This document shows positions 1,156 to 62,108 of a stretch of DNA of 64,000 bases, piece after piece (positions within the stretch are counted from its first letter, which is position 1; each line of letters opens with the position of its first letter). The DNA is from Pseudomonas saliphila (GTDB lineage: Bacteria > Pseudomonadota > Gammaproteobacteria > Pseudomonadales > Pseudomonadaceae): the NCBI RefSeq assembly GCF_008638345.1, contig NZ_VTVA01000002.1, positions 248,001 to 312,000 on the forward strand. The letters are read 5' to 3'. The notes under the pieces are model-generated. The model made no database searches, had not been told where the DNA came from, and was given only the letters and a program-made list of their open reading frames with translations. The position numbers were made by a program, and so were the translations under genes.

Positions 1156-1605
1156 TTATGAAGCCGTACAGCCCGACGGGGTATAGGACTCCTTCCAGCC
1201 TGAAGTCGACTTCACAATATTACAAGACCAAGCACCTTTTTCGTCTCTAGCCATATGAATCTTCGCACCTGTTACGTTACTTCCTCCTTTCAGCTCACAA
1301 GTGAGCAAGTCTGTCTTAGCAGCGATTCCTGTGGCAGGAACGTATGCAGCAGAAGTCATCGTGCAGCGATCCGAGCTCTTCAAACCTAACTCATCGAGAG
1401 CATTGGCAGCTAATGCTCTACCATCATTTATCGCAAGTTCGTATGCTGTTTTAGCGGGCGCCACCTCAGCCAAACCGGCAGAAACTTGAGCTTTAGCCGT
1501 ATAATCCTGATAAGCCGGCAAAGCAATAGCCGCCAAAATACCAATGATCGCAACCACGATCATCAGTTCGATCAATGTAAAACCTTTCTGCATTTGAGCT
1601 TTCAT
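1156..1605 (-). CDS. pilA: type IVa major pilin PilA
   Basis: A 149-residue type IVa pilin. The leader MKAQMQKG ends in the G8/F9 cleavage site, followed by [20 protein letters not shown] with Glu at +5 of the mature protein, the classic pilin N-terminus. Four cysteines are present; the last two (C128, C146) enclose an 18-residue loop fitting the C-terminal disulfide-bonded loop of pseudomonad pilins. The protein ends CTAS, with a terminal Ser. I chose ATG 1605 because GGAG lies 6 bases upstream; ATGs at 1617 and 1608 are also in frame but badly spaced. PilD (4938-5810) should cleave and methylate it, PilB and PilC assemble it. Transcription is predicted from the sigma-54 site at 1651-1666. 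Confidence 0.95.
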
Positions 1606-1650
1606 CATGTACTCCATTATGTGATTTAGCCGTTGGGCTGGTAGTGACGT

Positions 1651-1964: not shown

Positions 1965-3665
1965 ATGGATACCCCCGCGCTCTCTGGTCTGGCACGAAGG
2001 ATCGTTCAGGATCAGTTGCTGGACGCAACCGTTGCCAGCAAGGCCACCAAACAGGCCACGCTAGACAAGATTCCCCTCATTACCTATCTGGTACAGAAAA
2101 AGCTGGCCAGTGCCCGCGACCTGGCAATGGTCTGTGCTGATGAATTCGGTTACCCGTTCTTTGACCTTGGAGCGCTGGACAAGGATCACCAGCCGCAGGA
2201 TCTGGTCAGTGAGAAGCTGATCCGTCAGCATAATGTCCTGCCACTGTATAAACGCGGCTCCAGGCTGTTTCTGGCGATATCCGATCCGACCAACCAGCAG
2301 GCACTGAGCGATATCCAGTTCAATACCGGCCTGATGACCGATGCGGTCATGGTTGAGGACGACAAGCTTCAGGCCGCTATCGAGAAGTATCTTGAAAGCC
2401 CCACCGGCGGGCTCGGTGACATGAGCGACTCGGGCCTGGATGACCTGGAAGTTGAGTCAGTCAATGAGGATGACAAGACAACCGGCACCGGTGACTCCGA
2501 TGATGCGCCTATCGTGCGCTTCGTCAACAAGATGCTGCTGGACGCCGTGCGCATGGGCTCGTCGGACTTGCACTTCGAGCCCTACGAGAAGATGTACCGC
2601 GTGCGCTTTCGTACCGACGGCATTCTTCATGAAATGGCCAAACCGCCGGCACAGCTCGGCGTGCGCATTGCGGCGCGCTTGAAGGTCATGTCATCCATGG
2701 ATATGGCCGAGCGGCGCAAGCCGCAGGATGGCCGTATCAAGATGAAGATCTCGCGTAACAAATCCATCGACTTCCGGGTCAGTACGCTGCCGACTCTGTG
2801 GGGCGAGAAGGTCGTGCTGCGTATCCTCGATGCCGACAGCGCCAAGATGGGTATCGATGCGCTGGGTTATGAAGAAGATCAGAAGGAAATGTATCTCTCT
2901 GCGCTGGCTCGACCCCAGGGCATGATTCTGGTGACGGGCCCGACCGGCTCGGGCAAGACCGTGTCGCTGTATACCGGCCTGAACATTCTTAACACCATGG
3001 AGCGCAATATCTCCACGGCGGAAGACCCGGTCGAGATCAACCTGGAGGGTATCAATCAGGTCAACGTGAACCCCAAGCAGGGCCTGGATTTTGCCAAGGC
3101 GCTACGTGCGTTTCTGCGACAGGATCCGGACATCATCATGGTCGGTGAGATTCGCGATCTGGAAACCGCCGAAATCGCCATCAAGGCCGCGCAAACCGGT
3201 CACATGGTGCTTTCCACGTTGCACACCAACAGCGCAGCGGAGACACTCACGCGCTTGCGCAACATGGGGGTGCCCTCGTTCAACGTTGCCACCTCGGTTA
3301 ACCTCATCATTGCGCAGCGTCTGGCGCGCCGGCTCTGCAAGACCTGCAAGGCGCCCTTCGAGGTGCCGCGTGAGACCCTGCTGGAAGAAGGCTTCAGCGC
3401 TGAGAAAATTGATGCAGGGTTGACGATTTACGGGCCAGTGGGTTGCGAAAACTGCAAAGATGGTTATAAAGGGCGTGTTGGTATTTATGAAGTGGTAAGA
3501 ATTACGCCAGCCATGCAACGTATCATCATGGAAGACGGCAACTCTATTCAGATTTCAGACGTAGCCCAACAGGAAGGTTTCCGAAACTTGCGCCAGTCGG
3601 CCCTGATGAAGGCAGAACAGGGTGTTACCAGTCTGGCGGAAGTTAACCGAGTGACAAAGGATTAA
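1965..3665 (+). CDS. pilB: type IV pilus extension ATPase PilB
   Basis: A cytoplasmic hexameric ATPase that powers pilus extension, 566 residues as usual for PilB. Visible features in order: an N-terminal MshEN/T2SSE_N region (about 1-150); the GspE-type ATPase core with Walker A GPTGSGKT (325-332); Walker B around DIIMVGE (389-395); the His box TLHTN (about 418-422); and the C-terminal tetracysteine zinc motif CKTC (about 458) and CENC (about 494). It is the first gene of pilB-pilC-pilD, transcribed away from pilA, and ends three bases before pilC. The ribosome binding site before ATG 1965 is weak. Confidence 0.97.
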   Translation: MDTPALSGLARRIVQDQLLDATVASKATKQATLDKIPLITYLVQKKLASARDLAMVCADEFGYPFFDLGALDKDHQPQDLVSEKLIRQHNVLPLYKRGSRLFLAISDPTNQQALSDIQFNTGLMTDAVMVEDDKLQAAIEKYLESPTGGLGDMSDSGLDDLEVESVNEDDKTTGTGDSDDAPIVRFVNKMLLDAVRMGSSDLHFEPYEKMYRVRFRTDGILHEMAKPPAQLGVRIAARLKVMSSMDMAERRKPQDGRIKMKISRNKSIDFRVSTLPTLWGEKVVLRILDADSAKMGIDALGYEEDQKEMYLSALARPQGMILVTGPTGSGKTVSLYTGLNILNTMERNISTAEDPVEINLEGINQVNVNPKQGLDFAKALRAFLRQDPDIIMVGEIRDLETAEIAIKAAQTGHMVLSTLHTNSAAETLTRLRNMGVPSFNVATSVNLIIAQRLARRLCKTCKAPFEVPRETLLEEGFSAEKIDAGLTIYGPVGCENCKDGYKGRVGIYEVVRITPAMQRIIMEDGNSIQISDVAQQEGFRNLRQSALMKAEQGVTSLAEVNRVTKD

Positions 3666-3668
3666 GTC

Positions 3669-4934
3669 ATGGCTCAGCAAGCAGCAGCGCTAAAAAGGAA
3701 GACGGCCCCGGCGAAGAAGAAGGCCAAGGAACCCAAGATCTACCCCTTCAAATGGGAAGGCAAGGATCGCAAGGGAACCAAGATCTCCGGCGAGATGCAG
3801 GGAACCAACCCGGCCTTGATCAAGGCTCAGCTGCGCAAGCAGGGCATTCTCGTCACCAAGATCAACAAGTCCTCTACCCTGTTCGGCAAACGCAGCAAGG
3901 CGATCAAGCCGCTTGATATCGCCTTCTTTACCCGTCAGCTGGCGACTATGATGGCATCAGGCGTGCCGATCGTGCAGGCCTTCGAAATCATTGCCGAGGG
4001 TACCGAGAACCCCAGCCTGGCGAAGCTGGTCAATACCATCAAAACGGACGTGGCCGCGGGTAATACGCTGGCGGATTCGCTGCGTCAGCATCCGAAATAT
4101 TTCGATGACCTGTTCTGCAACCTGGTGGAATCCGGCGAGCAATCGGGTCGGCTGGAATCGTTGCTGGACCGGATCGCGACCTATAAGGAAAAGACCGAAG
4201 CGCTCAAGGCCAAGATCAAGAAGGCCATGACCTACCCAATCGCGGTGGTGGTGGTAGCGATCGTCGTAACGGCCATCCTGTTGTTGAAGGTTGTTCCGCA
4301 GTTCAAGGAAGTGTTTTCCAGTTTCGGTGCCGAGCTGCCGGCTTTTACCCTGTTCGTGATCGGCCTGTCTGAATGGCTGCAGGCATGGTGGTTTATTGTG
4401 CTGATAGGCTTGATCGCGCTGGGCTACGCTTATTCGCAAGTCAATCGAAGATCACTCAAATTCCGCGACGCCCAGGACCGCGCGCTGCTCAAGGCGCCGA
4501 TCGTCGGCAAGATCCTCTACGAAGCCGCCGTGGCCCGTTACGCTCGCACACTCTCCACGACGTTTGCTGCCGGTGTACCACTGGTTGATGCACTCGATTC
4601 AGTTGCGGGCGCCGTAGGTAACGTGGTCTTCCGCAATGCAGTACTGAAGGTCAAGGAAGACGTGTCGTCCGGTTCGCAGCTGAACTTCTCCATGCGCACC
4701 ACCAACGTATTCCCTTCGCTCGCCGTGCAAATGGCCGGAATTGGCGAGGAGTCCGGCAACTTGGATGGCATGCTGGAAAAGGTCGCCGACTATTACGAGG
4801 CCGAAGTGGATAACAAGGTCGACAACCTGACCACGCTGTTGGAGCCTCTAATCATGAGCGTTCTCGGGGTACTGGTCGGCGGCTTGATCATCGCCATGTA
4901 CCTGCCAATCTTCCAGCTGGGCTCCGTTGTCTAG
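3669..4934 (+). CDS. pilC: type IV pilus inner-membrane platform protein PilC
   Basis: A 421-residue GspF/PilC-family polytopic protein that forms the inner-membrane base on which pilin is polymerised. Two T2SSF repeats can be seen (about 84-206 and 287-409), each rich in helix-forming and acidic residues (for example ESGEQSGRL and IGEESGNLDGML, the duplicated signature). Three hydrophobic segments are present: TYPIAVVVVAIVVTAILLL, one near residues 225-260, and one at the C-terminus. The basic N-terminus (AALKRKTAPAKKKAKEP) is typical. It begins three bases after pilB and stops three bases before pilD, so the three are surely cotranscribed. Confidence 0.96.
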   Translation: MAQQAAALKRKTAPAKKKAKEPKIYPFKWEGKDRKGTKISGEMQGTNPALIKAQLRKQGILVTKINKSSTLFGKRSKAIKPLDIAFFTRQLATMMASGVPIVQAFEIIAEGTENPSLAKLVNTIKTDVAAGNTLADSLRQHPKYFDDLFCNLVESGEQSGRLESLLDRIATYKEKTEALKAKIKKAMTYPIAVVVVAIVVTAILLLKVVPQFKEVFSSFGAELPAFTLFVIGLSEWLQAWWFIVLIGLIALGYAYSQVNRRSLKFRDAQDRALLKAPIVGKILYEAAVARYARTLSTTFAAGVPLVDALDSVAGAVGNVVFRNAVLKVKEDVSSGSQLNFSMRTTNVFPSLAVQMAGIGEESGNLDGMLEKVADYYEAEVDNKVDNLTTLLEPLIMSVLGVLVGGLIIAMYLPIFQLGSVV

Positions 4935-4937
4935 AAT

Positions 4938-5810
4938 ATGACTCTTATCGATTACCTGGCCAGCCACGTGCTGGCCTTTGTTTTGCTCGCTGGTCTGCTT
5001 GGCCTGATTATCGGCAGCTTCCTCAACGTGGTGATCCACCGCCTGCCGCGCATGATGGAGCGGGACTGGCGCATCCAGGCAAGGGAAATCCTCGAGCCCG
5101 ACACTGAGCACACCGCCGAGTCGACCTATAATCTGGTTCTACCCCATTCCCATTGCCCGCATTGTGAGGTCGAGATCAAGGCCTGGCAGAACGTGCCGGT
5201 GGTGAGTTATGTATTCCTGCGGGGTCGCTGCGCCGAATGCAAAAGCCGGATCAGCCCGCGTTATCCACTGGTTGAATTGCTGACGGCTGCATTATCCATG
5301 GTCGTCGCCTGGCAGCTCGGCTTCGGCTGGGCCGCGGGCGGGTTGTTGCTGCTGACCTGGGGACTGATCGCGCTGAGCCTGATCGATGCCGACACCCAGC
5401 TATTGCCCGATGTAATCGTTTTGCCGCTGCTATGGCTTGGGCTGATTGTTAACAGCTTCGACGTCTATACCGACCTCAATACCGCCTTGTGGGGCGCCGT
5501 TTTCGGCTACCTCAGTCTGTGGTCAGTGTATTGGTTGTTCAAGCTGGTCACTGGCAAGGAAGGCATGGGGTATGGCGACTTCAAACTGCTGGCCGTGATT
5601 GGCGCCTGGGGTGGCTGGCAGGTATTGCCGCTGACCATTCTGCTGTCCTCACTGGTCGGCGCCATTCTCGGCATCATCATCCTCAAGTCCCGCGGCGATT
5701 CCAACGCCACGCCCCTGCCCTTCGGCCCCTACCTGGCCATTGCCGGGTGGATTGCCTTGATCTGGGGTGAGCAGATTACCGGGAGTTATCTGCGGTTTGC
5801 GGGGTTGTGA
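4938..5810 (+). CDS. pilD: prepilin peptidase / N-methyltransferase PilD
   Basis: A bifunctional inner-membrane A24 aspartic protease that cleaves prepilin leaders and methylates the new N-terminal residue. In 290 residues it shows the N-terminal methyltransferase domain with two CxxC pairs (HCPHCE and RCAECK) separated by about 20 residues. The peptidase half carries the two catalytic aspartates, in LIDADTQLLPD and in GMGYGDFKLL (the GxGD motif). About seven membrane segments are evident. It is the only prepilin peptidase gene in this window and should process every pilin-like protein encoded here: PilA, the canonical minor pilins, the second cluster at 46-50 kb and the lone FimT-like protein at 61.6 kb. 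Confidence 0.96.
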   Translation: MTLIDYLASHVLAFVLLAGLLGLIIGSFLNVVIHRLPRMMERDWRIQAREILEPDTEHTAESTYNLVLPHSHCPHCEVEIKAWQNVPVVSYVFLRGRCAECKSRISPRYPLVELLTAALSMVVAWQLGFGWAAGGLLLLTWGLIALSLIDADTQLLPDVIVLPLLWLGLIVNSFDVYTDLNTALWGAVFGYLSLWSVYWLFKLVTGKEGMGYGDFKLLAVIGAWGGWQVLPLTILLSSLVGAILGIIILKSRGDSNATPLPFGPYLAIAGWIALIWGEQITGSYLRFAGL

Positions 5811-45921: not shown

Positions 45922-48063
45922 CTACAAATAGCGTCCCCAGCGCAACTCAACACTGCCCGGCGTCCCTTCGCCAGGCGTTCCACCACTGCCGCCATCGCTG
46001 CCGATGATTGCACCTCCGGCCGGATCATAACGCTCCTGCAGTTCAACCGGGACCTGAAGGTTGATGGTCGTGCTGGCACCCATAATATTGATGGTCGTAC
46101 CGTTATTGCGCTGGGCCAGCGAGGAGACGTAGCCGTACAACTTCGCGTTACCCGAACTGCTGAACAGGTTGCCCGCCTTGGTTGCTCCGTATACCGACTT
46201 CTCAACACGGATATCGCCTCCCGCATACAGATTCTTCGCACAACCATCCACGCTGCCAGACGGGCAACTGCCAGCAAGTAACGCATAATTACCGATGCCG
46301 CCAAATGCCCGATGGTCGTAGCCGCCCGCATTGCAGAAGCCTTCCGGCATAAATGAATAGACGGCGTTGTTGCACACCCCCATGGCCGTATGGCCCTCAA
46401 CGGTAACGCCGTCGCGTCCCGCGTAGTTTGGAGCGAAGACTGCGCCACCGGCAGTCGTCACATGTATGTTGCCGGTGCTAATGAAAGTATTGGTGTAAGT
46501 GCCGCTGCCGATCTCGACATCACCCTCGGCCAGGACGATGCCCGGCGCATGGCTGAGTCCATTGAAATGCCATGCGTTGTCACGGCCAAACTCAGGGACC
46601 GGCGTCGAATTGTTGTTCGCCCGACCCAATTGAGCCAGACAATGTCCGTCAGTTTCGTCCCGGCGCGACGGAGCATTGTTATTGATGCAGGCATAACCGG
46701 CGACTTCACGGCTTGTCCAGCCAGGATTGCCGGGATCGATGATATTGGCAGTGCGGTAGAAGTAACCGTTTTGGCGGACCTCCTGCGAATTCAGCTCATC
46801 CGCAGAATCCCGTATCCCGTCCACGCCCTGCACTTTAACTCGCACTACACCATTCCTGAGCGAGTAAATGTAATGCGCCACGTCACGCAGCACATTGGCA
46901 TCGAAAACTTCCGGTTCCACTTCCACAGGCAGGACCGGGTCCAGCAGAACCGGTTGGGCCGAACGCGTGGCCGAGCGACTGCAACTGGGATTATTACCAA
47001 AGCTGCCGCCGTACGTAGCGGAGGACCATTCAGGCGAACAACCGTTGATAAGCAGATTGCCCTCCGCCTGAACGCGCCCTACGTTCACGCTGCTATTGAA
47101 CTCCACGTGATTCTTCGAGTAGATATTGCCGATACGAGGTGAGGGATGTGTTCGCACCCCGAATGAGGGACTGATAGAGCACAACTGCGCTGCCCCGGTA
47201 CTGCACTCGGCAACACCCGCCGGTTTGTTGGCGAGGGCACGAATATCCCCATGGGTACCGCCCGTGACCTCAACCGACCCGTTTGCAGTAATGGACTGAC
47301 TGTTGATGGTATTGGCCAGACACACGTTTCGCGTTGCCTTAACCGTGTTCACAGTAAAAGCACCGTTGCGGACCTCAACATCGCAATTGGCATGCATCTC
47401 TCTGAAATCAGTCGAGGAGCCGCCGACAAAACGGATCGACTTGGTCGAACGGATCACATCGATGCCGCCAGCGGACAAGCCCCCCAGATTCACATCGCCG
47501 TCCACGGTGATCTGGTAGCTTTCGCCGGGCAGGGTTAACACCTTCAAATCACCACTGATATTCAGACCGTCTCGAAACTGAATGGCCCGACGGTCCGATT
47601 GCGGCCCCTCCCCCTCACTCATGCCTGGCGGCGTTATCAGATACACCACCTCCAGCGTCGTTGACGCCGTGGCACGTGAATCGGGTGCTGCCGTGGCGGT
47701 GATATGAAGAGTCAATGCATGAGCAGCGGGCAGGCTGTCGTCATAGTTGGCGAGGCGTAGCGCCACCCCGTCCAGACCTTCGATCTGCAAGGAGTCGGGC
47801 TGCGTTTTGGCGGCCTCGTCGAAAGCCTGCCAATCATCTTGCCCCTGAATGACCTGAGTTAGAAAGTCGCCGAACGCATCGGCCGCCAACCACGCTCTTT
47901 TCTGCGCCATGGTCTGCGCGTGCAGGCTGGTGCTGAGCTCCTGGCTTGAGCGCAAATGCGAAACACCCACCAGGGTGGCGGCAGCAAGGGACAAGCCAAT
48001 CAACACCACGGTGAGTATCGTCGCGATGCCGTGTTCTTTTTTGGCCGAAGGAATTGGTTTCAC
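45922..48063 (-). CDS. large PilX/GspK-like exported protein of the second pilin cluster
   Basis: A 713-residue protein with a PilX-like N-terminus: short basic leader MKPIPSAKKEHG, then a hydrophobic helix (IATILTVVLIGLSLAAATLV) without Glu at +5, as in tip pilins. The rest has no resemblance to PilX. Residues about 150-330 and 500-660 are runs of short alternating strands with recurring G-x-I/V patterns (DGDVNLGG, VEVRNG, GSVEVTGG, AEGDVEIGSG), suggesting a beta-helix or bactofilin-like body, with about a dozen cysteines. It is the last and largest gene of five pilin-like genes, in the GspK position. It starts at GTG 48063, ten bases after the previous gene. A tip adhesin is an inference. 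Confidence 0.7.
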   Translation of the reverse strand: MKPIPSAKKEHGIATILTVVLIGLSLAAATLVGVSHLRSSQELSTSLHAQTMAQKRAWLAADAFGDFLTQVIQGQDDWQAFDEAAKTQPDSLQIEGLDGVALRLANYDDSLPAAHALTLHITATAAPDSRATASTTLEVVYLITPPGMSEGEGPQSDRRAIQFRDGLNISGDLKVLTLPGESYQITVDGDVNLGGLSAGGIDVIRSTKSIRFVGGSSTDFREMHANCDVEVRNGAFTVNTVKATRNVCLANTINSQSITANGSVEVTGGTHGDIRALANKPAGVAECSTGAAQLCSISPSFGVRTHPSPRIGNIYSKNHVEFNSSVNVGRVQAEGNLLINGCSPEWSSATYGGSFGNNPSCSRSATRSAQPVLLDPVLPVEVEPEVFDANVLRDVAHYIYSLRNGVVRVKVQGVDGIRDSADELNSQEVRQNGYFYRTANIIDPGNPGWTSREVAGYACINNNAPSRRDETDGHCLAQLGRANNNSTPVPEFGRDNAWHFNGLSHAPGIVLAEGDVEIGSGTYTNTFISTGNIHVTTAGGAVFAPNYAGRDGVTVEGHTAMGVCNNAVYSFMPEGFCNAGGYDHRAFGGIGNYALLAGSCPSGSVDGCAKNLYAGGDIRVEKSVYGATKAGNLFSSSGNAKLYGYVSSLAQRNNGTTINIMGASTTINLQVPVELQERYDPAGGAIIGSDGGSGGTPGEGTPGSVELRWGRYL

Positions 48064-48073
48064 GTTATTGGTT

Positions 48074-48769
48074 TCACCGGAAATTGATCAGACAGGTGCT
48101 GCTGTTGATCAGCAGGAAAGTGCTGGCGTCTGTGGCATCGTATTCTTCTGCCACGGGATGATGGGCCACCAGATTGACCTTGAGAGCCCCAGCGCCGGTG
48201 ACACCTAGCGCCTGGCAGCTTTCTTCTATTATTTCCATCGAGTCAAAAACCGCACCTTCCAGGCTCTTGGCATACAAACTGACCCGCTCCTGGGAAGGCC
48301 AGGAGCCTGAAAGCACTGCCCCTGCGCAGGGACGAGGTTGCAGATATTCCAATTCCCCAGCGGCATTGATATACAGCCCTGCACAGCGCTCGCCGACTGA
48401 CTGAGTGCGCCATAACAGCAGATCACCGCTGCGGTCGCTGGAGCAATTGCCAACTGCCAGTTGTCCTTGCGTCAGGTTAGCCGTGCAGAACGCCAAGTCT
48501 GTTGCCAGACTGGCGTTCTCGATCCCGAATCCCGCCTCCTGCAACTGCATATGTGCCGTCAATACAGCTGCCGAACGGTCACCCGTCATCCGGGCGTAAC
48601 TCCCGGACTCCGCCGTTGCGTGCACCACGGTGCGATACAGCGCCACCATGCCCATTACCGCGATGAGGGAAATGAGCATTCCGACCATCAAGCTGACAAG
48701 GGAAGCACCCTCTTGCCGCACCGGCCATTGCCCACCTGCAGGCTTAATACCCAAGTTGAAATCCCCCAT
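48074..48769 (-). CDS. PilW/GspJ-like minor pilin (second cluster)
   Basis: A 231-residue pilin-like protein. The leader MGDFNLGIKPAGGQWPVRQEG precedes ASLVSLMVGMLISLIAVMGMVALY. The helix and position fit GspJ/PilW, but the +5 residue is Ser instead of Glu, which is unusual. Several cysteines (AFCTANL, VGNCSSD, ERCAGLY, RPCAGA, ESCQALG, STCLINF) suggest a disulfide-stabilised head. It overlaps the upstream gene by 26 bases and is followed by the large PilX-like gene after ten bases. Confidence 0.78.
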   Translation of the reverse strand: MGDFNLGIKPAGGQWPVRQEGASLVSLMVGMLISLIAVMGMVALYRTVVHATAESGSYARMTGDRSAAVLTAHMQLQEAGFGIENASLATDLAFCTANLTQGQLAVGNCSSDRSGDLLLWRTQSVGERCAGLYINAAGELEYLQPRPCAGAVLSGSWPSQERVSLYAKSLEGAVFDSMEIIEESCQALGVTGAGALKVNLVAHHPVAEEYDATDASTFLLINSSTCLINFR

Positions 48770-49142
48770 CACCGCCAATCAGCCCATCAGGGTCATCGGT
48801 CACTACCAGCGTATTCGTCTCAAGGTTCACTGTCTTTTCCACGCTCCCCATACGCACCGTGAGCTGCAGCGTCTGCGGCTCACGGTTGAAACCGATAGTG
48901 CTTCCGGCCACGTTGATTGACGTCACGCCAGGGTCTTCAAGCAGCGCTTCGCGCAGGCCCAGCAGTACCTGATTCTCGGTCGTGGCATAGCGCTGTGTGG
49001 AGAGTACTTGTGAGGTGACGGCCACCAGACCCGCGCCAGTGATGCCCACCAGCAGAACGCTGACTAGCGCCTCGATGAGCGAAACTCCCTGCTGACGCAG
49101 CCGCTGTTTTACCGCCGACGCATTAATGGAATGGGTGTACAT
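48744..49142 (-). CDS. PilV/GspI-like minor pilin (second cluster)
   Basis: A 132-residue minor pilin: the leader ends in QQG, then VSLIEALVSVLLVGITGAGLVA with Glu at +5; the SLIEALV form is typical of GspI/PilV. The head is small and contains STQRYATTENQVLLGLREAL, the conserved region after the helix. GGGAGG lies before ATG 49142; the start overlaps the upstream GspH-like gene by 20 bases. Confidence 0.8.
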   Translation of the reverse strand: MYTHSINASAVKQRLRQQGVSLIEALVSVLLVGITGAGLVAVTSQVLSTQRYATTENQVLLGLREALLEDPGVTSINVAGSTIGFNREPQTLQLTVRMGSVEKTVNLETNTLVVTDDPDGLIGGDGGFQLGY

Positions 49143-49566
49143 CCGTCTCACCTCCCTTGGACAGGCGTGCAGTGAAGCCCGTGGCGTGCTGCCCACGATT
49201 GTTCAGCTCAATAGGAAAGCTTGCCCCCGTCAGGCTCAACTCCACCCCTGCCGGCAGCGTGGCTCGCCATAGGGTCTCATCGCAGACCCCAGAAGCGGTT
49301 TTGCACACCTTCAGCTGTCGGTCAGCAGTGTCATAGGCAATACGGGCTGCCGGCGCATCGCCAATAGCACCTAACGCGTTGCGCAGAGCCGCCGCCTTGG
49401 CATGACTGAACGCCTGGTTGATCTGACCGCCTGCGGTATGCAAATCCGCATTGGTCGTCCAGGAGGAAGTGAGCGGCGTGGCCGCCAGGGCCAGTAATGC
49501 GATGATCAACAGCACCACGGCCAGCTCGACCAAGGTCACACCGCTCTGCAGTCTGCAGCGCCTCAT
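49123..49566 (-). CDS. FimT/GspH-like minor pilin (second cluster)
   Basis: A 147-residue pilin-like protein. The leader MRRCRLQSG precedes VTLVELAVVLLIIALLALAATP, with Glu at +5. The head contains SHAKAAALRN, the GspH/FimT signature, and a Cys pair (KVCKTASGVCDE). The ATG (49566) overlaps the stop of the preceding pilin gene (TAATG), showing tight coupling. Confidence 0.82.
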   Translation of the reverse strand: MRRCRLQSGVTLVELAVVLLIIALLALAATPLTSSWTTNADLHTAGGQINQAFSHAKAAALRNALGAIGDAPAARIAYDTADRQLKVCKTASGVCDETLWRATLPAGVELSLTGASFPIELNNRGQHATGFTARLSKGGETDVHPFH

Positions 49567-50009
49567 TACCATGATGCAAAGCCACACTCTGACGTAGCAG
49601 AGCGCTGGTTCTCCCCGTCCAGGGTCAGGATGCAGCCTTGCATTGCACCGCTACCGGTCGCAGTCAGCCGATAAGGAGTGCTAGCAATGAACGCATGGGT
49701 GAAATGCTCAGACTGGGCAGGACGCCACTGACTGAATGCCGCCTTGAGCGCTGGGGTACCCGTGATATCCGCTGCCGGATAGGCGAGCGACCGCTGAAAG
49801 CGGCCCTCAACCACTGCGGCCAGCGATACGAGATCCGCGGCCGCCGTCTTGGCGCGACTCTTCTTGATGTAACCCTGATACGACGGCAAAGCGATAGCCG
49901 CGAGAATCCCGACGATCGCTATGACAACCATCAGCTCAATCAAGGTAAAACCACGGGTTTTGTAGGGGCGTACTCGTAGTGTCCGCTTGCAGTGCAACAT
50001 CGACCGCAT
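49566..50009 (-). CDS. PilE/PilA-like pilin heading the second cluster
   Basis: A 147-residue type IV pilin. The long basic leader [20 protein letters not shown] is cleaved before [20 protein letters not shown]. The head resembles PilE-type pilins ([20 protein letters not shown]) and has a C-terminal Cys pair ([16 protein letters not shown]) for a disulfide loop. Start 50009 has GGAG seven bases upstream. It could be a structural pilin for a distinct fibre or a PilE-like minor pilin; sequence alone does not decide. Confidence 0.8.
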
Positions 50010-50133
50010 ACATAAGCTCCGATTGGATGTAGGGAACACGACCAACAATCAGAATGCGTCGGACCTGAACCCAGTATCCGCACACATCCTTGATCAACCT
50101 GTACCGTTCTAGAGCGTTGCCAGAAGGATTCTG

Positions 50134-51899: not shown

Positions 51900-52328
51900 C
51901 TACCAGCACGCATCAACAGATGTTGCAGACTTATCACCGGTATGGGACAAGCGGAGCTCGCCACAAGTGGTGTCATTTGCGAGTTGTACGTTGATAGGTT
52001 CGGCAACGACCGTATAGCTGCGTTGCGCCAAATTATCCAAGCTAATGGTATACCGAGTATCGAGATTACTTGCGCTAGAGCAGTTTAGGGCGGGCACGGC
52101 ACCTGCATCTATATCGTATGTCAGGTTCGTGCTGTAGTACCGCTCCATAAATTGCGCATATTCCGACATACAGGCTTTTGCTGCCTCACGGTATGTTCTC
52201 GTCACATGGTTAACGTAAGACGGATAAGCGATAGCCGCCAATATACCGATGATCACTACCACAATCATTACTTCGATCAGCGTAAAGCCAACCTGCTTCC
52301 TGACGCTTGAACCGTTTCCCTTGCGCAT
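51900..52328 (-). CDS. pilE: type IV pilus minor pilin PilE
   Basis: A 142-residue minor pilin. The leader MRKGNGSSVRKQVG precedes [20 protein letters not shown] with Glu at +5. YREAAKACMSEYAQFMERYY after the helix and the C-terminal Cys pair (TTCGELRL, DACW) match PilE proteins. It is last in the operon, nine bases after pilY1 if ATG 52328 is used (an overlapping GTG at 52340 is possible). Confidence 0.92.
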   Translation of the reverse strand: MRKGNGSSVRKQVGFTLIEVMIVVVIIGILAAIAYPSYVNHVTRTYREAAKACMSEYAQFMERYYSTNLTYDIDAGAVPALNCSSASNLDTRYTISLDNLAQRSYTVVAEPINVQLANDTTCGELRLSHTGDKSATSVDACW

Positions 52329-52336
52329 AATTCTTC

Positions 52337-55300
52337 TCACTGTCCTGTGTTAATCAGTTCACGCCAAGAGGTGCGGCCGGCACCCGTCGAAAACGGATTG
52401 ATATCAATCTGCCGGATCTTTCCATCGTCAGTTGGAATTAGCATTTCCTCATCAAGGAATGAAGGGTTACTGAAACCAGTATCAAGACCCACCCCAGAGG
52501 CAGGCACCTCTTCCCCTCCGACCGTAACGAGATCCCCCGCTGTGAATAGAGAGTCCCCATTCAGATCAAAATAGGTATCGACCAGCCTCGCGCCAGTAAA
52601 AGGATCGATCGCCATGATGACACCTCGCCCTGAGGGAGCACAAGGATCGCTAGCATCAGGGATTCGAGTGTTACCAATCAACGCGCTACCTTGGAACTGG
52701 TTCGGCGTTACCATTCTTTCGCCTAAAGCATCAGAGCCGACAATCAGGTCTATAAACCATCCAGCTTTATCATTGAGATCCTCCCGGGCGCCCTCTTCGA
52801 TTACCCGAGCTGTAAGGCCGTTACCAACAGGAACGTCCGCCAGGATCTTGCGCTCAAGAAGGTCATCTCGATCAACCGATATGCCAGTGTCCTTTACGCC
52901 ATACCAGGACTGCACAGTGAAGTCACTCAGATCACCCGTATTGACGTAACTACCGGTTCCAAAAAATAACCACAACTGCTGGTTGTAGGGCGAGCGGCCA
53001 ACGAGCGGCATAGCAGTGATCGGCTGGATGGCTCCGCTAGGATTTATACTCGCTGCGGTGAATAACGATGTTGCCGTGGGGCTATCGGTGCCAACTGCAC
53101 CGATCTTCCACAGGTTGCCCTGCCAGTCACCCGCATAAACGGTGTCAGTGAATCCATCTCCATCACTGTCCCATGCTCGCACGCCCGATAACCCGTTTTC
53201 GGTGGCTGCGGAAACTGCAAAGGATTGAGGTGCCCCATCAAACAAACCGACAGAGATTAGATTCGCTATACCGCTTTCACTATTAGGACCATTTCCAAGA
53301 AGAACGGCCCATTTTCCATTAGCGACCTGCGCTATCACTGGTCTCCCAGAATTAACACCGAGCGCCGGGATATCGGTAGAGTCCTTTTCCCACATAAATT
53401 GGACGTTAGCCGGATCGGTAATATCAAGCGCAAAAACCGCGTTATTAGTCTCGCCTTCCTGATCAACCCCACCCGCTCCCAAGGTCCCTATCAAGACCGT
53501 ACGCCAGTTGGTGCCATCGTAGGCATCTGCGACAGTCAACTCACCGTCGACAAAATAACGGTGTTCATAATCGTTTCGCGCGAGCACGCCTAAGCCATTC
53601 TGAACGACCGTATGAGGGATATAGGCGAAAACTTCCTTCCCGCTAGCATCCTCTCCAACTGAGGCGTCAAAACCATGCAACATGCCATCGTTAGATCCTA
53701 CATATACGACCGCGTCCCTGTCAGATTTGCCCGCTGCCCAAGATGCATATTCTTCAGAACCATTAAAAGTGCGATTTCTGAATAACGTCGTACTAGGGGC
53801 GCCCACATATACGGGTTGCGAATTTACGATATCCCCGAGAACTCCCTGTCTAATGCGAAAACCGTTCCCCTTGTTTTCATTGCTACTGTCACCGCGAAGA
53901 TAATTAATCAAATCCGCCGTGCGATTCGCGTCGACTCCAGCGGCGTTCCTCAGCGCATCTTTTATTGTTGCGGGGAGCGTTGTGTTGGTGGAAATGAAAT
54001 TCATCATTTCAGTCCCAGTCCCAACCCTTATAGAACGCGCGTCGTGTGAAGGCAATTGACTGGCAGCACTCCAAGCAGGAGTCAGATTCACTTCACCTGT
54101 ATCTGCATCAATGATGTACGCGTTTAGATTTCCGGTCCAAGAGCCGCTAGTGTACTCAGCCTGGAAGGTAGCTGCGCCCTCCTTCAGCACCGTCGAGTTC
54201 AACGCAAGAGAAGAGCGGTTCCCTTGTCGCTCACTCTGAATATCCGAAAAGGCTTGAGTGAGACTGGCCACCAGATCCGCAGCCTTGTTTACCGTATAGA
54301 AATTGTCAGGTTTTTGCATGCTGACAGTATCAGATTCATTAGGGGATAGGGTCCCCCCATTTGTATACCACCACTCCAAAGGCAACACAGCACTTCGAGT
54401 CGCGGGATCATAGTCCTCTGGAACCTTCAAGCCACCGTACTTAGCCGCCAGCCAATACTGGTTCGCACTCTTCCCTTTCAGCTTCCCATACTCCTGAATA
54501 TCGATCCAATAGGTAGACATTGTTTGCTTACCATCTATATCAGACCGCAAATCCTGAGTATTAGCGTTATAGGCTAACGCAGCAATATATGCCGATCTAT
54601 GACCATTAACCAGATCACCATGCAAAGCGAATCCACCATTCTCTTTATTTTGGAGCGAAACAATTCTGGTCAATTCTGTCTCAACATTCACATCATCATC
54701 GGAAGGCGGGGTCCCTTTTCCACTGCCACTACCGCCTGGCAGCGTCCTATCATAATGGGTATTGGTATCTCCAATTCCAAGTGCGAAGTTCTTTTGGCAT
54801 GAAAACTGGACAGGATCGGAGAAGCCATCCCTGTCTGGATGCCAATCCCTTATCACAGGAAGACCGTCAACCAAGACACCCACATTAGAGCTACTTTCAA
54901 TGCTGCCATAATTTGTAGGGGAAGAAAGTTTTTTAAGATACCTGTACGCCAAGTAGTAAAGTTCACTGACCGTATCATATTTCTTGTAGCGCGCATCATC
55001 CACTATCATGCCTGCGTTATTAATAGTGTTAATAACTCCGCTAGAAACTACGGTCCCTATAGAATTCTGTGCATCAACGGGGTCTGGATTTTGGTCAAAC
55101 ACACCGTCATCATTCCATTCTCTATTTGGGTTCGCTTCCCAAATATTATCTTCATTCAGGCGCTTCGGGCCAACATATTTCATACGGGCGCGCATACCTA
55201 CGCCTTCAAACTCATTGAAAGCGCCCTCGCCATCTCCGAGATAAGAAAAATGGCTAAAACGCATGCTGTCCGAATATTCCTGAATAAGTCCCTCAGGCTT

Positions 55301-56113
55301 ACTATTTCCTCCATACTCGTTGCAATTCAGCTCTTCTAGCCCCTTGACACAAACTTTTACACGGACAGTTGCAATATATTCCTTTTCGGCGTGGCCACTC
55401 CAACCTCCCTTGCTTGAGTCACCGTTATGCACGGTATAGTTTTTATGCTCACTAGGATTATAATCAACCTTATCACCGCCCCATACATTTCCGCTGATAA
55501 AATACAGCTTATTTCCCAGGCGCTTGACACTAGCAGTCAACGTTGCAAATGGGAGTGGAGTTAGTTTTTTTATTAAATCCTTATTTGAGTTTATCTGGCT
55601 ATCCGGAAAGTTTTCATCACTTCCTTGCCCTGTATCCCAGCCTTTTTCTAGCCAAGTCTCTCCATCTGTATCACGAGCTCGATGACCACCTGTCAGGACG
55701 CTTCGGAACACATCGATAGCTTGGCTTGTAGACCAGTTAAGGAAATGACCGCTCCAGTAAAGACCTTGACAGTCACTGCCGCTCCAGTTTACAGGCTTAA
55801 AGTGTCTATTCTCTTCATTTTGATCATAGACATACTCATAGCATTTTTTGCTATCGAAGTAGCCCACGTATTCGTCACTCGAGCTGTAGCTCGTATCTAT
55901 TTTTTGTCCAGGTGCACCGTTGTTGGCTTTCGAAACCATTGTTGGGAATTCGAACGAACCGATTATCGCCATGTTCCCTGGCACCGGCTTGGCCACAAGG
56001 AGTGGTTGCTGATCGATGCCAACGGCAGCCGTGGCGGTCCCAGTGGACAGAACCAAGCTCAATGCAAAAGGGGTAAAGCCCGACAAGGTCGAGCGAAGGC
56101 GGCGGCTGTCCAT
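52337..56113 (-). CDS. pilY1: type IV pilus tip-associated protein PilY1
   Basis: A 1258-residue exported protein that with minor pilins primes and caps the pilus and can act as adhesin and surface sensor. A signal peptide is evident (GFTPFALSLVLSTGTATAA). The C-terminal half is the PilY1 beta-propeller (GNFRIRQG-like region at about 770, DAVVYVGSNDGMLHGFDASV, RTVLIGTLGAGG) with a calcium-loop-like DSDGDGFTD near residue 980 and a second acidic loop DLNGDSLFTAGD near 1205. The N-terminal half has GNMAIIGSFEFPTM where vWA-type PilY1 proteins carry a DxSxS metal site, so no MIDAS is visible. The N-terminal half is much more AT-rich than its neighbours. ATG 56113 is chosen over GTG 56137. Confidence 0.92.
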   Translation of the reverse strand: MDSRRLRSTLSGFTPFALSLVLSTGTATAAVGIDQQPLLVAKPVPGNMAIIGSFEFPTMVSKANNGAPGQKIDTSYSSSDEYVGYFDSKKCYEYVYDQNEENRHFKPVNWSGSDCQGLYWSGHFLNWSTSQAIDVFRSVLTGGHRARDTDGETWLEKGWDTGQGSDENFPDSQINSNKDLIKKLTPLPFATLTASVKRLGNKLYFISGNVWGGDKVDYNPSEHKNYTVHNGDSSKGGWSGHAEKEYIATVRVKVCVKGLEELNCNEYGGNSKPEGLIQEYSDSMRFSHFSYLGDGEGAFNEFEGVGMRARMKYVGPKRLNEDNIWEANPNREWNDDGVFDQNPDPVDAQNSIGTVVSSGVINTINNAGMIVDDARYKKYDTVSELYYLAYRYLKKLSSPTNYGSIESSSNVGVLVDGLPVIRDWHPDRDGFSDPVQFSCQKNFALGIGDTNTHYDRTLPGGSGSGKGTPPSDDDVNVETELTRIVSLQNKENGGFALHGDLVNGHRSAYIAALAYNANTQDLRSDIDGKQTMSTYWIDIQEYGKLKGKSANQYWLAAKYGGLKVPEDYDPATRSAVLPLEWWYTNGGTLSPNESDTVSMQKPDNFYTVNKAADLVASLTQAFSDIQSERQGNRSSLALNSTVLKEGAATFQAEYTSGSWTGNLNAYIIDADTGEVNLTPAWSAASQLPSHDARSIRVGTGTEMMNFISTNTTLPATIKDALRNAAGVDANRTADLINYLRGDSSNENKGNGFRIRQGVLGDIVNSQPVYVGAPSTTLFRNRTFNGSEEYASWAAGKSDRDAVVYVGSNDGMLHGFDASVGEDASGKEVFAYIPHTVVQNGLGVLARNDYEHRYFVDGELTVADAYDGTNWRTVLIGTLGAGGVDQEGETNNAVFALDITDPANVQFMWEKDSTDIPALGVNSGRPVIAQVANGKWAVLLGNGPNSESGIANLISVGLFDGAPQSFAVSAATENGLSGVRAWDSDGDGFTDTVYAGDWQGNLWKIGAVGTDSPTATSLFTAASINPSGAIQPITAMPLVGRSPYNQQLWLFFGTGSYVNTGDLSDFTVQSWYGVKDTGISVDRDDLLERKILADVPVGNGLTARVIEEGAREDLNDKAGWFIDLIVGSDALGERMVTPNQFQGSALIGNTRIPDASDPCAPSGRGVIMAIDPFTGARLVDTYFDLNGDSLFTAGDLVTVGGEEVPASGVGLDTGFSNPSFLDEEMLIPTDDGKIRQIDINPFSTGAGRTSWRELINTGQ

Positions 56114-56133
56114 AGTCCAGTTTCCTTTCCGGT

Positions 56134-56703
56134 TCACAGGTTTTGCTTAACAGTTATTTGCAGAGCCACGACGGAGCGACCATCATCGCCTCTTACCGTG
56201 CTACGGCCAGTAATACGATAGAGTTCAGCGCTAGGCGGCGTTTCATCACAACCAGCGTAGTTTGCGCAATTTGCGCTGTCCGCGAGGCCAAATTCGTCGG
56301 TTCCCCCGATCTCGCCCATTTTTTCTACATAGTACTGAGGGCTACCTGCCATCAAATCAGTATTTACTAGGTAGCTGCTGCCAACATTATTCCACCCTGA
56401 ATTACTATTCGGTTCAAAGGTATTGCGCGGTGTGGGTGGGCAACCATGAGTGGCAGGATTGAAAGTGGAGGGATCTACGATAACACAATCAATTGGCGTC
56501 GCGGCTCCCGACTCCAGCGCCGCTTCTCCCGCTCTCAACGCCGATTCAGCAGCCTGGTAAGCGAGCGAGCGATCGTAGAGGTTACCTGTCATTTTTTCGC
56601 TTAAAGTGGCACCCCGAATCGCTGCAAGCCCGATTGTTGTAGAAATTAATAGCATAATCAGGGCGATCAGTAACGCCGCGCCAGATTGTTGATGTCTTTT
56701 CAT
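56134..56703 (-). CDS. pilX: type IV pilus minor pilin PilX
   Basis: A 189-residue PilX/GspK homologue. The leader MKRHQQSG precedes AALLIALIMLLISTTIGLAAIRG, lacking the +5 Glu as usual in PilX. The conserved ATLSEKMTGNLYDRSLAYQAAESALRAGEAAL block is the PilX_N/PilX signature, split here by residue: ATLSEKMTGN then AYQAAESALR. It overlaps pilW by four bases (ATGA) and is followed by pilY1 after 20 bases. Confidence 0.92.
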   Translation of the reverse strand: MKRHQQSGAALLIALIMLLISTTIGLAAIRGATLSEKMTGNLYDRSLAYQAAESALRAGEAALESGAATPIDCVIVDPSTFNPATHGCPPTPRNTFEPNSNSGWNNVGSSYLVNTDLMAGSPQYYVEKMGEIGGTDEFGLADSANCANYAGCDETPPSAELYRITGRSTVRGDDGRSVVALQITVKQNL

Positions 56704-57770
56704 AGCGAGCGATTCCTGATTGCAATGACACTGGTCAATTCTCGGGAGAGACGCCCGTCATTCTCGCTAGCATCGGTAGAAATATTCCTATCCAGAGTCG
56801 CCAGCTTCAACGAGACCTCTACTGCATTCACATCGGCCCAGTTCGTGACTTCACCTGCATTGACGAAGCTGGATGTATCGACAAGCCTGTACCTCAAGTT
56901 CACGTCAATCACACCGGTAGCTATTTCTATTTGCGTCAAACTATTACCGGTCGAATCTAGTCTTGCCATAAACAAAGAACGCCCGCCCTCACCTGCACGA
57001 CCTGTGTCTCCAATATACCAGGCCACTGATTCAAACTTAGCGACAACCGTATTCGGCCCATACGGCCCTCTATTACCATTTATATCGCACGGCTGATTAT
57101 CGTTATTTCCCGGAATAATCGGACCCAACCCTTTAGTGCAGTTTCCAGGCTCCTGCTTATCACCTGTATTTGCAACAATTGTTCCAGAACCTTGACCACT
57201 TCCGTTTGTCATTTGAAATATGGTGCCTTGCTTTGCGTTACAAACCAGCAATATCTCTCCATCTTGCAGCCCATGCGGATCCCCATCAGCGGTACCAACC
57301 GTGAAGTTAGCAGAGCTATTATCGTCATCATATGTCGCCATATATATATTTCCGACTACACCTGAGACAAGTATCAGAGCCTCTGTGCCATCAACCCGGT
57401 TATCGACACCATTAAGCACCTTATCGGCGGCCACCCCGTGTATTCCGTCAGCAAAATCATACTGCCAGGGGGTTTCACCCTCCGTGTTTGCCGGCATAAG
57501 AATATTGACCAGGTCAATATCCTTTCCACAAGGTACGTTTCCAGCCTGCCGGATATCCCTTGCCAGCAGTTCATAACCGACTCGCAAGCTATCTTGAATT
57601 TGAGACAATCCTTTTGTAGTTCTAAAGCTCTGCATATTGGACAGCATAATCCCGGTTACAGCGCCGATTATAACTAGCCCTAGCACTAAAGAAATCATCA
57701 GTTCGATTAATGCGAGCCCTTGCTCTCGGAGACGCCCCACCAGGATTATTTGGCTTATAGCTTTTCTCAT
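56700..57770 (-). CDS. pilW: type IV pilus minor pilin PilW
   Basis: A 356-residue PilW/GspJ homologue with leader MRKAISQIILVGRLREQG and helix LALIELMISLVLGLVIIGAV (Glu at +5). The post-helix QSFRTTKGLSQIQDSLRVGY and LLARDIRQAG are the PilW signature. The large head contains NGSGQGSGTIV and Cys pairs. ATG 57770 overlaps the pilV stop (ATGA); the longer in-frame version to 57920 is rejected. AT content is higher than in neighbouring chromosome genes. Confidence 0.92.
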   Translation of the reverse strand: MRKAISQIILVGRLREQGLALIELMISLVLGLVIIGAVTGIMLSNMQSFRTTKGLSQIQDSLRVGYELLARDIRQAGNVPCGKDIDLVNILMPANTEGETPWQYDFADGIHGVAADKVLNGVDNRVDGTEALILVSGVVGNIYMATYDDDNSSANFTVGTADGDPHGLQDGEILLVCNAKQGTIFQMTNGSGQGSGTIVANTGDKQEPGNCTKGLGPIIPGNNDNQPCDINGNRGPYGPNTVVAKFESVAWYIGDTGRAGEGGRSLFMARLDSTGNSLTQIEIATGVIDVNLRYRLVDTSSFVNAGEVTNWADVNAVEVSLKLATLDRNISTDASENDGRLSRELTSVIAIRNRSL

Positions 57771-58213
57771 AACCTTACCTCGGTCACTATCTTCTGCTTT
57801 CCACTTCCATCGAACGCACGAGGATCTTCCCATTGCACCGTTACCGTGCAGCCAGTACTGCTGCAGGCGACTGAGCCCGCCGCAGTCTCGCCGAGGTTCA
57901 GTGCCAACTGTTCCCGCCATGAGATGAGTGCTTGCGCCGGAAAGGTACTTCCGCTGGGAGCGCTGCCCAGTTCCACGTTGAAGCGACCACTTTTCGCAGA
58001 GTCGGCATCTGCACGAATCGCCTCAATAATGGAGTAACTTTGTACAACTGCCACCGAGCGCTCCATCGCGTTCTGATTATTTCGCAAAGACGTCAGCTGC
58101 AAGCCGGCAAGACCAAGTAATCCGATAGCGAGCACCAGTACGGTAATCAATATCTCGATAAGACTGATCCCACCTTGCAGGCGTCGCGCAGTGAACCGTT
58201 GGCCAATAATCAT
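57767..58213 (-). CDS. pilV: type IV pilus minor pilin PilV
   Basis: A 148-residue PilV/GspI homologue: leader MIIGQRFTARRLQGG, helix ISLIEILITVLVLAIGLLGL with Glu at +5, then the signature GLQLTSLRNNQNAMERSVAV and ARWR-like SWREQLAL. A Cys pair lies near the C-terminus (VACSSTGCTVTV). ATG 58213 overlaps the fimT stop (ATGA). Confidence 0.92.
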   Translation of the reverse strand: MIIGQRFTARRLQGGISLIEILITVLVLAIGLLGLAGLQLTSLRNNQNAMERSVAVVQSYSIIEAIRADADSAKSGRFNVELGSAPSGSTFPAQALISWREQLALNLGETAAGSVACSSTGCTVTVQWEDPRAFDGSGKQKIVTEVRL

Positions 58214-58743
58214 GGACACACCCCCGCCACACGGGTTACAGACACCCGGCCTGCCGCTCCAAAACTAACCGTTCGCTTTTTTTCCCCAGATCCACTCGTG
58301 GCGCAAACCGTAATTACAGCCTCGTCAATTAGGGTGTTATTGGTTCGGGCCAGCCCATCTCCCGCAAAAACCGCGGTCTGGCTCGCCAAATCGGATTTAA
58401 CCTTAACCGTGCCTCCAAAGGTGTTAATTCTTCCTATCCTAAGAACCTTTTTTCCGGCATCCATCGAATTATCCAGAACGGCCCAGTGCAACCAGTCTCC
58501 ACCTGCAGCGCACTTTTCGCGGTCAGCTTCATCAACCTGGCAAAGCAATACGGGGCGATTTCGAGAGAGCGCTTCAGACCGTGCGAGGCTGATGGACTCA
58601 GCCAGCTCAGCAGCAATGGTATCAAGGCGGGAATTGATAATGAGATTTCGAAATGAGGGTACCGCTATGCTGATCAAGATGGCGGCGATTGCCACAGTGA
58701 TCATTAACTCAATTAGTGTGAATCCCTTCAACCGATGTTCCAT
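58210..58743 (-). CDS. fimT: type IV pilus minor pilin FimT/FimU (GspH-like)
   Basis: A 177-residue GspH/FimT homologue and first gene of the operon. The leader MEHRLKG precedes [35 protein letters not shown] is the GspH/FimT signature, and Cys residues at CQVDEADREKC and the C-terminal VAGVCP are present. AGGAGG lies seven bases before ATG 58743. Only one GspH-type gene is present here, whereas P. aeruginosa has fimT and fimU; the lone gene at 61.6 kb could be the counterpart. Confidence 0.9.
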   Translation of the reverse strand: MEHRLKGFTLIELMITVAIAAILISIAVPSFRNLIINSRLDTIAAELAESISLARSEALSRNRPVLLCQVDEADREKCAAGGDWLHWAVLDNSMDAGKKVLRIGRINTFGGTVKVKSDLASQTAVFAGDGLARTNNTLIDEAVITVCATSGSGEKKRTVSFGAAGRVSVTRVAGVCP

Positions 58744-58929
58744 CAATCATCCTCCTGATAGTCATGACACTATGATCGAACGCTCATCAAACGTCTTGTC
58801 GCTGGAGACGAGTGGCACATTCCTGGGGATGAAGTGGTTAGTGAGGAAGACAGGCAAGCATTACCGGCTTCAGAGCGATAGGCTTTCACTGGCACGAACT
58901 GAACCCGACCTACCGCCAGGGCGCTTATA

Positions 58930-61413: not shown

Positions 61414-61589
61414 GATGGCGTTGCAAGGGTCAGGTTTACTGGCAGACCCTCTCCCAACGTGAACCTGCGCGCAAATTCAGACTACAGTCAGGTCTATAAC
61501 GAACCGCTGACCTACAATTCCCGTATCGAACCGCTCAGGTTCATTTCGGGCGCATGGCTGTAGCCCGCTTACGTCAAGGAGGACGGGCC

Positions 61590-62108
61590 ATGCGGTCCTA
61601 TGGATTTACTTTATTGGAGTTGATGGTGGCGCTCGCCATTCTCGGCATCATGTTGGCGATCGGTGTGCCTGCCTTTGGCACGGTGATCGATAGCCAGCGG
61701 ATGGACGATGGCGTCAACGGACTGGTACGCGGCTTGAACTACACCCGTACCGAAGCGGTACGCCGCAACCGTCCGGTAACGGTGTCACCGATAGACGCCG
61801 ACTGGAACGCAGGCTGGCGCATTTTTCTGGACCATAATACCAACGGCGTTTATGACGACGGCGAAACGTTGCTCCGTGAAGACATTCCCGCCGATGTCGC
61901 CTACGTGCACGCCAACACCCATGTCGCCAGCTATGTGCGTTACAACCCGCACGGCGAATCGGTATTGCTCAATGGCGGCTTTCAAGCAGGAACCTTCCGC
62001 TTCTGTCCGCGCAAGGTCGAGGCAGAGGGGCGAAAGCTGATCATCAACCGGATCGGACGTGTGCGCTTGGAGCGTGCAGTGATAGATGCGCGGTATTGCA
62101 CCAGCTGA
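61590..62108 (+). CDS. lone FimT/GspH-like pilin
   Basis: A 172-residue GspH/FimT-type prepilin with a very short leader, MRSYG, then FTLLELMVALAILGIMLAIG with Glu at +5. The signature NYTRTEAVRRNRPVTV follows. The head contains a possible Asp-rich loop (LDHNTNGVYDDGE) and a C-terminal Cys pair (RFCPRK, RYCTS). AAGGAGG precedes ATG 61590, and the upstream in-frame start (61554) would hide the leader. It stands outside both pilin clusters and is convergent with argJ, a possible FimU/FimT paralogue. Confidence 0.88.
   Translation: MRSYGFTLLELMVALAILGIMLAIGVPAFGTVIDSQRMDDGVNGLVRGLNYTRTEAVRRNRPVTVSPIDADWNAGWRIFLDHNTNGVYDDGETLLREDIPADVAYVHANTHVASYVRYNPHGESVLLNGGFQAGTFRFCPRKVEAEGRKLIINRIGRVRLERAVIDARYCTS

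Follow-up and report, generated by a model that had tools for sequence, protein, structure and literature searches.

We identified a gene for a 713-residue modular minor pilin, here called bigX (45922..48063, minus strand), in the 64,000-nucleotide stretch of DNA analysed (the window). It closes a tight five-gene minus-strand operon that encodes pilE-, fimT-, pilV- and pilW-like pilins followed by bigX. Its product probably caps an alternative priming or tip complex of type IV pili and may serve as a ligand-binding add-on tip that can move on plasmids. The five-gene arrangement (the cassette) is present, complete or nearly so, at 27 loci in Halopseudomonas, other Pseudomonadales, one other gammaproteobacterial family, and small plasmids of Acinetobacter and Psychrobacter.

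A large minor pilin without Glu5

The bigX open reading frame (ORF) begins with a GTG start codon, and the plus-strand reading of the same interval is broken by stops. Residues 1-12 (48028..48063) form a class III leader ending in KKEHG, with predicted cleavage after Gly12 (junction KPIPSAKKEHG^IATIL; Gly12 at -1, mature start IATIL, Leu at +5). A leader of this kind (basic n-region, Gly or Ala at -1, about 20 hydrophobic residues) is readable in all 25 family members used; the N_methyl Pfam profile does not match the window protein. The residue at +5 is Leu in 24 of these members and Val in one, and never Glu, as in PilX/GspK capping pilins. This count (n=25) omits L061 and L077, whose ORFs have no readable N-terminus, and also L060, since L060 and L075 are one plasmid. 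Glu5 normally pairs with the N-terminus of the preceding pilin.

The leader is followed by the N-terminal pilin helix (residues 13-71, 47851..48027; modelled as a helix over residues 14-71, with low confidence in the first half) and a pilin head with three predicted strands (residues 100-143, 47635..47766; model pLDDT about 57-70, with fold matches to ComZ and pseudopilins). The C-terminal tail ending in WGRYL (residues 700-713, 45925..45966) is proposed, from its conservation, to be the last strand of the pilin domain; this strand is absent from the model. The protein ends in [RK]-Y-x in 25/25 members and in W-x-R-Y-x in 23/25. Family lengths range from 487 to 946 residues, with a variable body and both ends kept. 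The window protein has exactly 12 cysteines, all kept across six close Halopseudomonas sequences (window included), and the number of cysteines in the mature protein is even in 25/25 members.

The first-pass annotation had described a 713-residue ORF at this position, leaving its strand unstated, with an N-terminus lacking Glu at +5, about a dozen cysteines and about four times the size of PilX. All of these hold; the canonical PilX of the same window has 189 residues, giving a ratio of 3.8. PilX_N and GspK sequence models did not match the window protein at E<=1, and NCBIfam GspK matched 2 of 19 members weakly (best E 0.043). The PilY1 beta-propeller (PF05567) was not found in the 713-residue protein; it matches the neighbouring PilY1 at 1.1e-40.

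Partner pilins and the resident pilus genes

The other cassette genes encode a PilE/ComP-like pilin (49566..50048; PilE/ComP_DUS type), a FimT/GspH-like pilin (49123..49587; Glu at +5), a PilV-like pilin (48744..49196; Glu at +5) and a PilW-like pilin (48074..48778; Ser at +5), all on the minus strand. These four ORFs overlap, and 10 bases separate the pilW-like gene from bigX. A scan with a loose motif script, whose calls include one doubtful ORF each at L054 and L078, found four prepilin-like ORFs upstream of bigX on the same strand at 24 of the 27 loci and three at the others (L036, which lacks FimT, L054 and L077). The PilW-like partner lacks Glu5 in 17 of 23 cases (Ser in 16, Gly in one) and has it in four; the two remaining rows (L079 and L082) were not parsed, and their motifs read Glu. 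The PilE of L013 is left out of the +5 results, its cleavage site having been misplaced by the script. Two cassette subunits without Glu5, bigX and the PilW-like pilin, fit no simple tip model. The earlier proposal that a single polypeptide may merge the tip pilin and adhesin roles is upheld in part.

The window also encodes, for context, a canonical minor-pilin operon (51900..58746, minus strand; FimT, PilV, PilW, PilX, PilY1 and PilE), including FimT (58210-58746), PilX (56134-56703), PilY1 (52337-56137) and PilE (51900-52340). A serine-hydrolase gene (PF00144; 50299-51594, minus strand) lies between this operon and the cassette, and by eye serine-hydrolase-like ORFs also occur near the cassette in L013-L016. 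The prepilin peptidase PilD (PF06750) is encoded within 1965..5810 on the plus strand, together with genes that we take to be pilB and pilC; the gene at 1156..1617 (minus strand) presumably encodes a PilA-like major pilin. PilQ is present in the same genome. From this gene set, we conclude that the cell has pilus machinery and that bigX is part of a second tip set. A lone FimT/GspH-like prepilin gene (61554-62108, plus strand) encodes a protein with a C-terminal GRVR; motifs of this kind are reported from FimT proteins that bind DNA.

The repeat body

The region between the pilin head and the C-terminal tail can be divided into an N-terminal solenoid-like half (residues 157-372, 46948..47595), a less regular middle part (residues 373-490, 46594..46947) and a C-terminal solenoid-like half (residues 491-690, 45994..46593). 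Hydrophobicity autocorrelation was calculated over 18 of 19 aligned members, one being too short. Over residues 150-345 it is raised at lags 6, 11 and 17 (mean z 2.2, 1.2 and 1.5) and lowered at lags 1, 3, 5 and 7; lag 17 is positive in 17/18 members, which are not independent rows because they are related, and the window protein by itself reaches a lag-17 z of only 1.4. Elsewhere, the pilin part has lag 6 (1.0) and not 11 or 17, the middle part has none of the three, and the C-terminal part has weak signals at lags 6 and 18 (1.0 each). The FapA beta-solenoid domain is the sole recurring Pfam family, found in 5/19 members (best E 0.0012); in the window protein its match (E 0.016, 15.3 bits) is under the 31-bit cut-off.

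AlphaFold2 models of the full-length protein (alignment of four sequences; mean pLDDT 35.3, pTM 0.26) and of residues 150-372 (mean pLDDT 40.0) are too weak to settle the fold. With the low-confidence full-length model as query, ComZ (PDB 6qvi) was the best of 913 structural matches, Xcp pseudopilins were among the best, and residues 487-615 matched beta-helix proteins. The fragment model gave no Foldseek match at E 0.001; it shows a weak fold resemblance to ice-binding proteins. ComZ was absent from PDB sequence searches at E<=10. Other weak PDB and NCBIfam matches (Ika8, 6js9, 3nqi, cyclopropane synthase and others) were taken as chance.

The leader, the helix and a large body are clear, and the body has no assigned domain. 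The periodicity and the FapA and beta-helix matches point weakly to a solenoid fold, and the structural matches, with the conserved tail that follows the body, point weakly to a ComZ-like layout; the protein probably carries a long coiled body of beta-strands. The first-pass annotation likened the body to bactofilins or beta-helices and expected modelling to return a pilin helix plus a right-handed beta-helix. The repeats are borne out; there is no bactofilin Pfam match. The model has the helix and three head strands and does not settle the beta-helix.

The Xcp matches bear on the idea that the cassette is a set of pseudopilins (GspH-I-J-K-like) for secretion or periplasmic assembly rather than an extracellular tip. 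GspK is likewise a tip pseudopilin enlarged by a domain insertion, and it gave the weak matches in 2/19 members mentioned above. However, the cassette begins with a PilE/ComP_DUS-type pilin, in Halopseudomonas it usually adjoins canonical type IV pilus genes, and no other secretion-system genes were found in the locus ORF lists, read by eye. We consider this very improbable, the least probable of the readings weighed here.

Comparison with known tip pilins

The closest likeness is to ComZ of Thermus thermophilus, a large minor pilin with a GspK-like head and a beta-solenoid inserted in the pilin domain (PDB 6qvi; PMC6561018). BigX is likewise a large minor pilin and may share this head and this insertion. 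As in the cassette, the Thermus comZ locus has four pilins plus a large one, with a proposed tip location. Steric grounds were given for placing ComZ at the tip only (PMC6561018); the same argument would apply to bigX. There is no detectable sequence similarity between the two proteins. Members of the bigX family have about 700 residues and 6-12 cysteines, whereas the word 'disulfide' does not appear in the text of the ComZ paper (PMC6561018). Also unlike ComZ are the FimT, PilV, PilW and PilE partners of proteobacterial type and the plasmid copies.

PilB of Streptococcus sanguinis (PMC8179133) combines a pilin module with a bulky ligand-binding module, likely at the tip, a design that bigX may share. 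The vWA module of PilB is fused C-terminally (PMC8179133), whereas the body of bigX appears to be inserted, with the proposed pilin tail after it. Modelling of Vibrio cholerae and S. pneumoniae tips makes the pilin without Glu5 the cap, with the V. cholerae order PilX > PilV > PilW > FimT (PMC12040237). Like the PilX/GspK capping pilins and the VC0857-0861-type tip complex, bigX has lost Glu5, holds the same operon position and has FimT/PilV/PilW-type partners. It differs from them in being three to four times larger and in lacking a PilX_N match, and most cassettes have a PilW without Glu5 as well. The FapA, bactofilin, MinC and ice-binding beta-solenoids resemble the body through the weak FapA profile and weak fold likeness; unlike bigX, they have no pilin helix.

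The ComZ precedent raises the alternative that bigX is a dedicated DNA receptor, with a solenoid tip that binds DNA and is retracted for natural transformation. ComZ binds DNA, and cells that lose it remain piliated but no longer transform (PMC6561018), and the five-gene Thermus locus resembles the cassette. A further point in favour is the major-pilin-like gene that follows the cassette in genome G003. ComEC is present in 36/37 Halopseudomonas genomes; however, it is equally present in those without the cassette and does not discriminate, and competence was ruled out as a predictor of the cassette. Ten of 12 members have a body with net negative charge, one is neutral and one positive, but according to its authors ComZ has no positive patch either (PMC6561018). 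The DNA-binding motif G[RK]x[RK] is missing from all 14 cassette FimT proteins checked; the one in the window has none near its C-terminus, and the canonical FimT at 58210 also lacks it, whereas the lone FimT-like protein has GRVR. We regard a dedicated DNA receptor as unlikely, and a surface or polymer ligand would fit at least as well as DNA.

Distribution and conservation

We identified bigX in 7 of 37 Halopseudomonas genomes, its own included, with identities to the window protein of 65-82% in five others and about 27% in G003. Full-length PilW-like partners are present in exactly these seven genomes (E 1.8e-66 or better), and other matches are partial (best 1.2e-10). Within the genus, the cassette is thus gained or lost as a whole. 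Beyond the genus, in samples that are even draws from larger groups, it was found in 6/293 genomes of the order (own included), 3/369 of the class (own and one weak N-terminal match included), 9/249 of the family of G272, inferred to be Moraxellaceae, and 3/398 of the phylum (own and one weak partial match included). G531, which matches at the N-terminus only (E 8.2e-4), and G1241, with a partial match (E 3.6e-5), were not counted as members; the short, distant versions in G292 (499 residues) and G895 (487 residues) were kept.

Among the six close sequences, mean pairwise identity is 89.5% in the helix, 83.8% over residues 161-280 and 58.4% in the pilin head. Five ortholog pairs have whole-gene dN/dS values of 0.07-0.16, which indicates purifying selection; dS approaches saturation in some of them. 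In a phylogenetic tree, all seven plasmid rows group together (98/98) and Halopseudomonas falls in two parts, with G003 placed with G491 from another family of the class (100/99). The supported branches force at least two changes; the deeper order is unsafe because the program flagged long branches that join (L012/L054 with L037).

Several loci have other neighbours. In G003 (L012:13272-15102), the cassette is followed by one Sel1-repeat ORF and then by the major-pilin-like gene and a Wzy_C-type ligase, possibly with a role in pilin glycosylation. Cassettes with 832-946-residue caps occupy one conserved site, by eye between dus-like and ffh-like ORFs, on Acinetobacter-like chromosomes (L076, L078, L079 and L080). 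In L077 (4895-8379), transposase-like ORFs separate pilW from the big pilin, and the usual N-terminus is missing from the ORF of the latter.

Cassettes on small plasmids

A tblastn search of 72,556 plasmid records returned the same six records from five of six family queries, and none from the short member L037. The plasmids (8.5-31 kb) are Psychrobacter pA42P4 (8.5 kb) and pA59P4 (12.4 kb), Acinetobacter lwoffii pALWED3.2, A. schindleri pHZE33-1-2 and pBDT2091-2, and A. wuhouensis p2_010060 (30,787). Five are typed as mobilizable; pA59P4 is typed as non-mobilizable despite an annotated relaxase and mobC. The nine annotated genes of pA42P4 comprise two for replication, two for mobilization and the five of the cassette; the PLSDB gene table is incomplete and further genes may exist. 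The other plasmids have more genes, many of them hypothetical, and some have toxin-antitoxin pairs and IS elements. Cassettes also occur on plasmid-like genome contigs, L035 with Rep3 and MobA/MobL (Pfam) and L081 with a RepM-like ORF (by eye).

Among the displayed plasmid features (26 of 42 for p2_010060), none is annotated as pilus machinery, so the cassette would have to use the machine of its host. PilQ scored over the curated cut-off in 14/14 other cassette-bearing genomes tested. From the location on small plasmids, it seems that bacteria can take on new pilus tips in the form of ready-made sets.

The patchy presence of the cassette and its location on small plasmids that have few other annotated genes could also reflect an interference device, borne by plasmid or host, that re-tips or poisons resident pili and so excludes pilus-using phages, DNA uptake or competing plasmids. 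However, the chromosomal Halopseudomonas copies are old enough for 65-82% identity and are under purifying selection, and we judge such a device quite improbable. A viral-contig scan and a phage-record search with one plasmid member as query gave no match that would indicate a viral origin, nor did PHROGs with five proteins.

Type IV pilin genes as plasmid cargo have a precedent in the PIL modules of Antarctic Pseudomonas plasmids, reported to enhance biofilm formation (PMC6896180). Those modules are described there as major pilin (PilA) genes (PMC6896180), whereas the cassette is a five-gene minor-pilin tip set. Literature searches on plasmid-borne minor pilins and the plasmid names, which covered neither bioRxiv nor most subscription papers, gave no description of the cassette among the papers listed, and the word pilin is absent from the main text of three Acinetobacter plasmid papers naming pALWED3.2. 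Searches on minor pilins with a beta-solenoid or bactofilin and on Halopseudomonas pili returned ComZ, modular pilins and unrelated papers. The bigX family and a tip set as plasmid cargo are both apparently new.

Proposed role and implications

The cassette has each part of a V. cholerae-type tip, and it is most simply read as a set that primes pili with a solenoid cap. Once the cassette is expressed, prepilin peptidase would cleave the bigX leader after Gly12, and the helix without Glu5 would sit first, at the distal end of the filament, with the PilV-, PilW-, FimT- and PilE-like pilins beneath it. A disulphide-rich beta body of ~550 residues, solenoidal for the most part, would split the pilin head, and the conserved C-terminal WGRYL strand would complete the head, as in the layout of Thermus ComZ. 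The body would be displayed at the tip because it is too bulky for the shaft. There it may bind an extracellular ligand, most likely a surface or cell-surface polymer and possibly DNA, which retraction of the pilus would pull in. A set of tip subunits only would rely on the resident PilB/C/D/Q machine, and could therefore work as an add-on tip and travel on plasmids. We view bigX as a probable variant of the known modular, ComZ-like tip pilin in an unexpected, mobile five-gene context. We propose, more tentatively, that the complete five-subunit tip set of small plasmids, with a ComZ-like solenoid cap, settles on the type IV pili of the host and alters their binding. The plasmid or its host would thereby gain a new phenotype in adhesion, DNA capture or phage escape.

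ComZ has so far been an unusual protein of Thermus. A separate gammaproteobacterial family that appears to be built alike would point to solenoid-capped tips as a recurring solution among pili. With the plasmid copies comes the testable question of whether a mobile tip set can retarget the resident pilus, and these copies are natural, self-contained sets in which to study minor-pilin priming and ligand choice. If the proposal is true, the pilus tip would be a mobile, exchangeable module.
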